Below, in pieces: positions 4,221 through 24,940 of a stretch of 64,000 nucleotides of DNA. Numbering within the stretch: position 1 is the first letter of the stretch; each line of letters opens with the position of its first letter. Made by a program: the position numbers and the translations under genes. Origin of the DNA: Rhodomicrobium vannielii ATCC 17100 (GTDB lineage Bacteria; Pseudomonadota; Alphaproteobacteria; Rhizobiales; Rhodomicrobiaceae); the NCBI RefSeq assembly GCF_000166055.1, contig NC_014664.1, positions 1,265,927 through 1,329,926 on the forward strand, read 5' to 3'. Under the pieces are notes generated by a model that did not search any database, had not been told where the DNA came from, and saw only the letters and a program-made list of their open reading frames with translations.

Positions 4221-4299
4221 GGCCCGTCGCATCACATCGTACGGGCGACGTTGAGGGAACGAACGCGCGCCCCGCCGCGAACGCGGCGAGGCACAGGCG

Positions 4300-4364
4300 T
4301 CAGGCTTGCCGGGTCAGGCTTGCCGCGTCAGGCTTGCCGCGTCAGGCTTGCCGGATCAGGCTTG
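4300..4364. repeat. 14-bp tandem repeat at the 3' end of ahpD
   Basis: The unit TCAGGCTTGCCGSG is repeated head to tail at 4300, 4314, 4328 and 4342, with a partial fifth copy at 4356. The fifth copy contains the ahpD stop codon, so the array appears to have grown from the gene's own last codons into the downstream gap. Units differ only at the last two or three bases. Confidence 0.9.
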
Positions 4365-21478: not shown

Positions 21479-23275
21479 ATGAATACGGTGAACAGGCGTG
21501 CTTGGCAGTTTGAACGGCGCATTGTCACGATCATGGCAACCGACGTGGCGGATTATTGCCGTCTCATGGGAGCGGACGACGAACTTACGTTGTCGCGTTT
21601 TCTGACCTATCGTCAGATCACCGAGCATGTAATCCGCTCGAACCGGGGACGCATGTTCGGCGTTGCGGGCGATTCATGGATGGCCGAATTTCCGGTCCCC
21701 CTCGACGCGGTGCGTGCCGCGATAGAGACGCAGCGCGCCATCAAGCGTCGCAATTGCCTTTTGCCCGAGGAAAACCGCATCCGCCTTCGGATCGGCCTCC
21801 ATATGGGCGACGTCATCGTCGATTCCTCTGGCCTCTTTGGCGACGAGGTGAACATCGCCGCGCGGTTGCAGCAAATCTGCGCGCCCGGTCATCTCGTTCT
21901 CTCGGAAGCGGTGGTCCGCTCCGTGGAAGGGCAGATCGATGTCGCGTTCGATCCGCTTGGGCCGCGCCAGCTGAAGAATATCCTTGCTCCGGTCTCCGCA
22001 TTCTCCGCAAATCTCGGCGCTACGGCAGCCGAGACCGGAGACGTTGCGTGCGAGGCGGCGATGCAGCCGCCGCAGGGCCACGACCGCAAGCCCGTGCTCG
22101 CAGTTCTCCCCTTCCAAATCCACCGGAACGGGCCAGTGGATGAATTCTGCGGGGAAGTCTTCGCCGACTCCCTCGTCAACGGTCTTTCGCGGTTGCGGTG
22201 GCTTCCAGTACTTTCGCAGTGGTCCAGCTTACGGTTTCAGAACGGCCAGCGGAGCCCCTGCGAGATCGGGCGAGCGCTTGGCGCGCGTTATCTGGTGACG
22301 GGTCGCCTGAAACTTTCCGGATCACAGCTTGACGTAACGGTCAATCTGATCGACTCGAGCAACTGTCACAATCTTTGGGGACGCACATTCGCGCTCGATC
22401 CCACGTCGCTTGCCGAGGCGCAGAATGACTTCACGACTGCGGCGGTCAGCGCCCTCGAACTCGAACGCGCGGAATTTGCTCGCCTGAGTGTCAAGAAGAA
22501 GGAAGACCTGAACCCTTGGGAACTGGTGCGCCGAGGCACCTGGCATCTCAAGAAACTGACCGAGGACCACCTCGCCATCGCGGCCGAATTTTTCCAAACG
22601 GCCGTCGAGGGCGATCCCGGTTCGAGTGAGGCGCTGATTCAGCTAGCTACCTGCCATTTCTCGGACATCTGGATGCACAGCAGGGATGCAGCCCTCCTTC
22701 GAGAAACCGAGGAACTCGCGCGCAAGGCCTGCCTTCTCGATCCGCAGGACGCGCGCGTCTACCTCGTCATCGGCCTCGTTAAACTGGCAACAGAAATGCC
22801 GGAGCGCGCGCGGTCCTATTTCCAGCGTTCGCTCGAACTCAATCCGAGCTTCCCTGCGGCCCATTGCTGCCTGGGAAGCAGTTACACGCTTGCGGGCGAG
22901 CCGGGGATTGCGATCGCCCATTTCCAGCGGGCAATGCGCCTCAGTCCGTGCGATCCGCTGACCTTTCACTTCCTCGGCGAAACCGCGCTTGCCTACCACC
23001 TCATCGGCGAGTGGGCGGCGGCGGCCGACCACGCCGAGCGCGCTCTCAATCTTCGGGCGCGCTATCGGCTCGCGAAAGTCGTCCAGATCGCGACCTTTGC
23101 ACGAAGCGGCGAGGTGGCGAAAGCGCGCGCCGAAATAGAGAAGTGGCCCGGCGCGTTCTTTGTGCGCGAGGTCGAACGGTTGCCATTTAACGACAGAAGC
23201 TGGAACGCCACCCTCATCGAGGGGCTCAGGCTTGCGGGGTGCGATGCTACTGATGACGGGCGGGATGAGGATTAG
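21479..23275 (+). CDS. Class III nucleotide cyclase with TolB-like and TPR domains
   Basis: A 598-residue cytoplasmic protein. The N-terminal cyclase domain (about 10-185) has metal-type aspartates Asp22 (MATDVADYCRLM) and Asp65 (VAGDSWMAEF) and the catalytic GDEVNIAARL (Asn125, Arg129). The lysine that usually reads the adenine base before the second aspartate is not seen, so the substrate is uncertain. A TolB-N-like domain follows (about 205-330, KPVLAVLPFQ ... LGARYLVTGRLKLSG), then TPR repeats (about 345-570). This is a common rhizobial architecture. A Crp-like regulator follows, suggesting a local cyclic-nucleotide circuit. Confidence 0.85.
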   Translation: MNTVNRRAWQFERRIVTIMATDVADYCRLMGADDELTLSRFLTYRQITEHVIRSNRGRMFGVAGDSWMAEFPVPLDAVRAAIETQRAIKRRNCLLPEENRIRLRIGLHMGDVIVDSSGLFGDEVNIAARLQQICAPGHLVLSEAVVRSVEGQIDVAFDPLGPRQLKNILAPVSAFSANLGATAAETGDVACEAAMQPPQGHDRKPVLAVLPFQIHRNGPVDEFCGEVFADSLVNGLSRLRWLPVLSQWSSLRFQNGQRSPCEIGRALGARYLVTGRLKLSGSQLDVTVNLIDSSNCHNLWGRTFALDPTSLAEAQNDFTTAAVSALELERAEFARLSVKKKEDLNPWELVRRGTWHLKKLTEDHLAIAAEFFQTAVEGDPGSSEALIQLATCHFSDIWMHSRDAALLRETEELARKACLLDPQDARVYLVIGLVKLATEMPERARSYFQRSLELNPSFPAAHCCLGSSYTLAGEPGIAIAHFQRAMRLSPCDPLTFHFLGETALAYHLIGEWAAAADHAERALNLRARYRLAKVVQIATFARSGEVAKARAEIEKWPGAFFVREVERLPFNDRSWNATLIEGLRLAGCDATDDGRDED

Positions 23276-23349: not shown

Positions 23350-24048
23350 TTGCCCTTTAGAATGGCCACTCTCAAGCGATGTGAGGTTCTGCGAGACCTC
23401 CCCGACACCGTCGTTCGCGACATCGCCCGCAGCTGCATCTGGAATTCCGTTGCAGCCGGCAAGCAGATCGTGATGGCCAATGAACGCACACGGGACGTCT
23501 ACTTCGTGACGAAGGGAAAACTGCGTGCTCTTCTCTATTCGGCGGCGGAGGGAAAGCCCGTTCTGTTCGCAACCATAAGCGCGGACGAAATGTTCGGCGA
23601 ACTTTCGGCTCTCGACGGCGAACCGCGCTCCGTCACCATCGAAGCCAGCAGCGACTGCATGCTCGCCATCCTGTCCAAGGATCAATTCCTGAGACTCCTT
23701 GAAACGCACCCGGAGTTTTCGCTCCTCATCATGCAAAAACTCGCGAGAAAGGTTCGCGCGCTTTCGGATCGGATTTTCGAATTCAGCACGTTGAGCGTTC
23801 AGGCGCGGGTTCATGCGGAACTTCTCCGCCTCGCGGTGCTCGCAGGAGACAAGAACGGGCAGGCGCTCATTTCTCCCGCGCCGTTGCTGGCCGATTTCGC
23901 GGCGCATATAAGCACGCACCGCGAGGCGGTTTCCCGCGTGCTGAGCCGCATTCAGGATATGGGCATCGCTCGTCGCGAAGGGCCCGATTTGCGCATTCTC
24001 GATTTGGAGAGACTGCGCGCGCTTCATCGGGACGCGCGCGGCGAGTAG
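23350..24048 (+). CDS. Crp/Fnr-family transcriptional regulator
   Basis: A 232-residue regulator. The N-terminal cyclic-nucleotide-binding beta barrel contains FGELSALDGEPRSVTIEA, with the Glu and Arg-Ser typical of cAMP-contacting phosphate-binding cassettes. A dimer helix and a winged helix (about 165-225) with LLADFAAHISTHREAVSRVLSRIQDMG follow. No Fnr-type cysteines are seen. The TTG start is preferred because an AAAGGAG site lies 8 nt upstream; the ATG four codons later has none. It is located 74 bp behind the cyclase gene in the same direction. Confidence 0.88.
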   Translation: MPFRMATLKRCEVLRDLPDTVVRDIARSCIWNSVAAGKQIVMANERTRDVYFVTKGKLRALLYSAAEGKPVLFATISADEMFGELSALDGEPRSVTIEASSDCMLAILSKDQFLRLLETHPEFSLLIMQKLARKVRALSDRIFEFSTLSVQARVHAELLRLAVLAGDKNGQALISPAPLLADFAAHISTHREAVSRVLSRIQDMGIARREGPDLRILDLERLRALHRDARGE

Positions 24049-24082
24049 CGGACCGTTATCGGCCTCAGTGCCCGTCGAATGC

Positions 24083-24376
24083 GATCAAGGCGTGGGAGCG
24101 AACGCCATGCGCGGAAAGCTTCGCAACACCGCCGAGCTCCGGGAGATCGATGACGAAGGCCGCGCCCGCGACCTCGCCGCCCACGAGCTTGATGAGCTTG
24201 ACCGCCGCTTACGCCGTGCCGCCCGTGGCGATCAAGGCGTGGGAGCGAACGCCATGCGCGGAAAGCTTCGCAACACCGCCGAGCTCCGGGAGATCGATGA
24301 CGAAGGCCGCGCCCGCGACCTCGCCGCCCACGAGCTTGATGAGCTTGACCGCCGCTTCCGCCGTGCCGCCCGTGGC
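24083..24376. repeat. 147-bp tandem duplication of the 3' end of apt
   Basis: Two head-to-tail 147-bp copies (24083-24229 and 24230-24376) differ by one base only (24211 A versus 24358 C). The 9-bp word GCGATCAAG begins at 24081, 24228 and 24375, marking the ends and junction; it is the likely microhomology used for the duplication. The unit is exactly 49 codons. The single difference turns GAA into TAA in the reading frame of apt. Confidence 0.97.
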
Positions 24377-24754
24377 GATCAAGTCGTCTACGATCAGCAC
24401 GCGCTCGCCCGGCTTCACGGCATCCTCGTGCATCTCGATGATGTCGGTGCCGTATTCGAGCTGGTAATCCTGCCCGACGGCGCGCCACGGCAGCTTGCCC
24501 TTTTTGCGGATCGGGATGAAGCCGCAGCCGAGGCGATCCGCCACGGCGCCGCCGACGATGAAGCCGCGCGCTTCGATACCCGCGACCGCGTCGATCTTCT
24601 CGCCCTCGTAAGGAGCAGCCAAGCGCCGGATCGCCGCGCGAAAGCCGTCCGCATGGCCGATCAACGTCGTGATGTCACGGAACATGATACCGGGCTTCGG
24701 ATAATCGGGGATCGTGCGAACCAGAGATTTCAGATCGAGAGTGTCGAGGCTCAT
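24209..24754 (-). CDS. apt: Adenine phosphoribosyltransferase with a duplicated, re-terminated 3' end
   Basis: A purine salvage enzyme making AMP from adenine and PRPP. The 181-residue product has the PRPP loop [20 protein letters not shown], and [21 protein letters not shown] for base binding. The start [29 protein letters not shown] is typical. An internal 147-bp tandem duplication would extend the protein in frame to 229 residues, but a G-to-T change in the distal copy creates TAA at 24209-24211. The result is almost the ancestral length (180 residues if the duplication is removed), with the last residues changed from HALIAFDGH to [10 protein letters not shown]. All catalytic parts are intact, so it is probably functional. 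Confidence 0.92.
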
Positions 24755-24940
24755 GCGAATCCCTTTTCCGCAACAGGCAAGTACCGCCGTTTTCGCAGGC
24801 GTATCCTTGGCGTTTAGCAGATGCGGCCCCATCTCTTCAATGACTTTCGGAGGATCGTTTTGACGCGCGCATGGCAAAGCGCGGAACCGGTCATCATCCG
24901 GGATGTTCCGTCTCAGTTGAGTCAGGAAAGGTGCCGAAAG

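Follow-up and report, generated by a model that had tools for sequence, protein, structure and literature searches.

Repeat-mediated tandem duplications in bacteria are recognised by a short direct repeat at the unit ends and at the junction, together with close relatives that carry a single copy, and they consist of exact head-to-tail copies with no insert. Each of these features was found at a locus in a photosynthetic freshwater bacterium, where the 3' end of apt, a purine-recycling enzyme gene, is duplicated head to tail. The apt array resembles the described cases in its exact head-to-tail arrangement, its short bordering repeat and the lack of inserted sequence, and differs from them in having a very short unit of 147 bp that lies within a gene, keeps the reading frame and carries one substitution. 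A similar comparison can be made for the protein. Like other bacterial adenine phosphoribosyltransferases (families NF002634 and TIGR01090), the encoded enzyme has an intact catalytic core and PRPP loop and scores above the curated cut-offs; unlike them, it ends in TGGTA and lacks the C-terminal aromatic-x-Gly-x, which is conserved in the family though not defining for it. The change to apt belongs to a known, ordinary kind of event. A literature search found no papers on Rhodomicrobium and apt, and the titles and abstract openings returned for microhomology duplication, repeat deletion and partial duplication with a stop did not mention this case.

Results

The window analysed here is a stretch of 64,000 nucleotides of the Rhodomicrobium vannielii ATCC 17100 genome, which is itself a single contig of 4,014,469 bases. 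On its minus strand lies an open reading frame of 181 codons plus a TAA stop (24209–24754), assigned to apt (adenine phosphoribosyltransferase) by NCBIfam and Pfam profiles. A repeat finder and TRF agreed on a 147-bp tandem array at 24081–24387, comprising 2.1 copies and overlapping the 3' end of this gene. The proximal copy (24228–24374, minus strand) is translated and codes from the TGGTA of the PRPP loop through HALIA, and the distal copy (24081–24227, minus strand) is translated in its first codons alone, the remainder being 3' DNA. An earlier note, made from the letters of this DNA, had described two head-to-tail copies one base apart, the leftover one untranslated. Both statements hold: the copies abut with nothing inserted between them and are identical at 146 of 147 bases. 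Their sole difference is C24358 against A24211 on the plus strand. In the gene's orientation this is a proximal GAA codon against a distal TAA, the latter forming the stop of the present gene (24209–24211, minus strand). Past this TAA the frame stays open to HALIAFDGH, so that the old C-terminal codons FDGH and the old TGA stop (24066–24080 on the minus strand, with TGA at 24066–24068) lie in frame beyond the new end. A chance repeat is ruled out by the 146/147 match, and a mobile element by copies that abut and contain apt sequence alone.

The array is bordered by a 9-bp word, CTTGATCGC (GCGATCAAG on the plus strand), which occurs three times on the minus strand at a spacing of 147. The first instance (24375–24383) codes the LIA of DDLIATGG, the second (24228–24236) sits at the novel junction where HALIA is joined to TGGTA, and the third (24081–24089) lies at the far border, where HALIA precedes the old FDGH tail. 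All three boundaries thus carry the word, as had been claimed. Because it overlaps the borders, the register of the array can slide by 9 bases, and the span of 24083–24376 given in the earlier note is an equivalent phase of 24081–24374. The note had also put the TAA directly after the junction; it sits 16 nt into the distal copy, though it does occupy the first site there at which a single substitution makes a stop. Altogether TRF returned five rows in the window, those other than the 147-bp array having periods of 14–19, among them a 14-bp unit at 4297–4364 (4.9 copies, 92% matches). Antisense and overlapping open reading frames, such as one of 249 codons on the plus strand (24068–24817) and one of 154 codons on the minus strand (24024–24488), are presumed to be mechanical products of high GC content, and a search for a terminator or promoter near apt gave no consensus match.

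The apt protein passed the curated equivalog cut-off of NF002634 (250.9 bits against 170, residues 6–176) and the cut-off of TIGR01090 (214.1 bits against 185.85), and matched Pfam PF00156 at 63.1 bits. Against NF002632 it scored 220.9, below the cut-off of 243, as did the proteins of two other members of the genus, G003 and G004. The PRPP-binding loop DDLIATGGT is present, and D123, D124, L125, A127, T128, G129, G130 and T131 are invariant across 36 aligned sequences, the window's included. The present protein has 181 residues, would have 229 if the TAA were read as GAA, and compares with 180 in G003 and G004; frame translation and the two genus mates thus bear out the three lengths given previously. 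At the C-terminus, the match to NF002634 extends to the end of the profile in the two mates (254.8 and 252.3 bits) and falls four positions short in the window protein.

We compared this end across a set of 109 related loci, of which 29 came from whole genomes and 80 from a genome-contig collection, some contigs being in both sets; the closest of the 80 loci kept was 76% identical, and the collection may omit records near the window. A first tail motif missed four of the 80 loci, and a relaxed motif matched 109/109. Counting from the PRPP loop to the C-terminus gives 55 residues in 108 of the 109 loci and 56 in one, the window protein having 56. Position −4 is aromatic in every locus (Phe in 106, Tyr in 3) and position −2 is always Gly. 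In the window TGGTA replaces FDGH, placing Thr in the aromatic column and Gly in the Gly column. The earlier statement that the mutation restores the protein is thus right for length, to within one residue, and wrong for sequence, since the aromatic is gone. A tail of this kind may impair the enzyme, although the 181-residue form probably remains functional.

To establish the ancestral state, the 294-bp array was compared with five genomes of the genus. Both copies were found in the window's own genome only; G002, G003 and G004 each had one matching stretch, and G001 had none. In G003 and G004 apt is single-copy, has GAA at the site of the stop and encodes 180 residues ending in HALIAFDGH, as the earlier note had expected of relatives. 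Since these two genus mates are single-copy with that ending, the duplication is derived rather than ancestral. Among the 41 related genomes listed, a second partial apt match, repeating the C-terminal part with an internal TAA, was likewise confined to the window's genome, and a second copy was not apparent in the best 20 of 38 plasmid records matching at 60–80% identity. The surroundings of the gene are shared: a Crp/Fnr-type regulator convergent to apt (23350–24048, plus strand), which is separated from the old apt stop by 17 bp, is kept beside apt in G003 (89% identity) and G004 (88%). In G001, rated 99% complete, matches to the Crp-like regulator reach only 23–26%, and the apt–regulator locus seems to be absent. 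Directly before the regulator, at 21479–23275 in the window, lies a gene in which an adenylate/guanylate cyclase domain is fused to TPR repeats.

The age of the array and the constraint on the gene were estimated from substitutions. Between the two copies there are no synonymous differences over 40 synonymous sites, giving a 95% upper bound of 0.075, as against a dS of 0.38–0.49 between apt and its counterparts in G003 and G004 (176 codons). This agrees with the view that the duplication is fresh, although gene conversion between the copies could be another reason for their likeness. Because dN over the same comparison is 0.021 (dN/dS about 0.05), apt has been under strong purifying selection between species.

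Whether the stop was itself selected can be approached by counting. Of the 882 single substitutions possible in the 294 bp, 14 create a stop, seven in each copy, and none of these 14 is a transition. The first ten distal codons offer one possible single-substitution stop, the TAA observed. Depending on the mutational spectrum (transition and GC-to-AT biases), a random change would yield a distal stop with a probability of 0.34–0.79% and the observed stop with one of 0.06–0.18%. The proposal that selection acted against the long form gains from the rarity of distal stops (7/882) and from the observed one being the first, but it concerns a single event chosen post hoc; selection against the 229-residue form is plausible, and sequencing error or an origin of the base together with the duplication could account for the TAA instead. 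When the 229-residue frame was modelled with AlphaFold2, block means were 88–99 for residues 1–170, 80 for 171–180 and 57–71 for 181–229, the added part taking the form of an extra helix-strand-helix-strand. On this model the core of the long form would fold while carrying a loosely placed half-domain, which would probably harm the enzyme. Spontaneous collapse is to be expected of a 147-bp tandem repeat, and a strongly harmful long form could thus have been removed by deletion instead. That the array persists, given this other route of removal, therefore suggests weak selection or a very recent origin.

Discussion

Taken together, these data are best accounted for by slippage at short direct repeats and a subsequent nonsense mutation, a reading to which we assign a probability of about 0.72. 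A slip in replication or repair between two CTTGATCGC words 147 bp apart in apt, both coding Leu-Ile-Ala, would have generated a second, in-frame copy of the gene's 3' third. The fold up to residue 176 would have been left unaltered and the frame extended by 48-odd residues, to 229 in total. A subsequent G to T substitution, six codons inside the duplicate, would have created the TAA stop. The gene would now yield 181 residues with TGGTA in place of FDGH, what remains of the second copy having become untranslated 3' DNA. The slippage mechanism, the order of events and the benefit of losing a dangling half-domain are what we infer in this model. The suggestion of a microhomology-driven duplication is favoured by the presence of CTTGATCGC at all borders, but 9-bp pairs are ordinary in such genes. 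Direct repeats of 9 bp form four pairs in single-copy apt, against an average of 2.3 in codon-shuffled versions, 92% of which have at least one; this led us to reject the idea that the word is special in itself. The telling point is that the ends of the duplication coincide with a 9-bp word. A pair of 9-bp words at 147-bp spacing (CTGATCGCC) is also held by G004, and G003 is without one.

A different possibility is that apt is dispensable and decaying, the stop being an unselected step in that decay or an accident. The gene is found in 369 of 397 genomes of the order and has no match at E 0.001 in the other 28 (several of which fall within one genus, g37), and G001 has no strong apt match, giving a weak paralogue match alone; apt is therefore not indispensable. 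The new tail, moreover, drops a residue kept in 109/109 loci. However, the apt frame is otherwise undamaged, the dN/dS between species is not that of a decaying gene, and a random change would produce a distal stop rarely, within the first ten codons in about 0.1% of cases. We consider neutral decay rather unlikely.

It might also be argued that the array is an artefact of assembly or sequencing, in which case the cell would lack either the second copy or the TAA. Such doubts arise from a resequencing of DSMZ-supplied ATCC 17100 DNA, which showed an ANI of 94.73% to the published genome, with 2,222,458 bp (55.37%) of the reference aligned, a mismatch the authors blame on the assembler, Newbler 2.3 (PMC8104044). 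An ANI gap near 5%, however, would point to a difference of strain or species rather than to assembler error; on the same discrepancy, the published R. vannielii ATCC 17100 reference may perhaps represent another strain. Furthermore, an assembly doubling predicts identical copies, and because the apt copies differ at one base they look like two real sequences. Tandem arrays are also scarce in this genome. With units of 30–2000 bp and 95% identity, the apt array was the sole one in the window and 20 further stretches (464 kb), and at 90% identity one more was found in the window and 40 stretches (864 kb, 21.5% of the genome), so a general tendency of the assembly to double segments was rejected; 400 kb of G003 contained no tandem arrays. 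The additional array, at G000:C1:3308589-3308958 (L159:8589-8958), is low-complexity, has about three copies of a 117-bp unit (238/253 identical, 94%) and is crossed by a Gln/Gly-rich open frame. An artefact at apt thus seems improbable.

Error-prone template switching might instead have made the base change during the duplication itself, in which case selection would never have acted against a long form. The junction is just 16 nt from the changed base and the 294 bp are otherwise unchanged, as this would predict, but a G to T at that exact codon would still be a coincidence, making a joint origin of the two changes improbable as well. That the array is a metastable purine-salvage switch, with a population mixing working, altered and null apt, is far-fetched; collapse of the repeat would restore the ancestral gene of 180 residues (about 84% of crossovers by position, all positions weighted equally) or, when the crossover falls before the TAA, leave a truncation at residue 132 without enzyme (about 16%).

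With slippage and a subsequent nonsense change as the preferred reading, the locus carries both a caution and an opportunity. The caution is that published work has cast doubt on the identity of the reference genome. If confirmed in reads, the apt array would be a snapshot of a gene between duplication and repair. The two states are readable alongside the mutation and the single-copy relatives, and a direct comparison of the ancestral protein with the present and the long one would bear on the cost of carrying a C-terminal half-domain.
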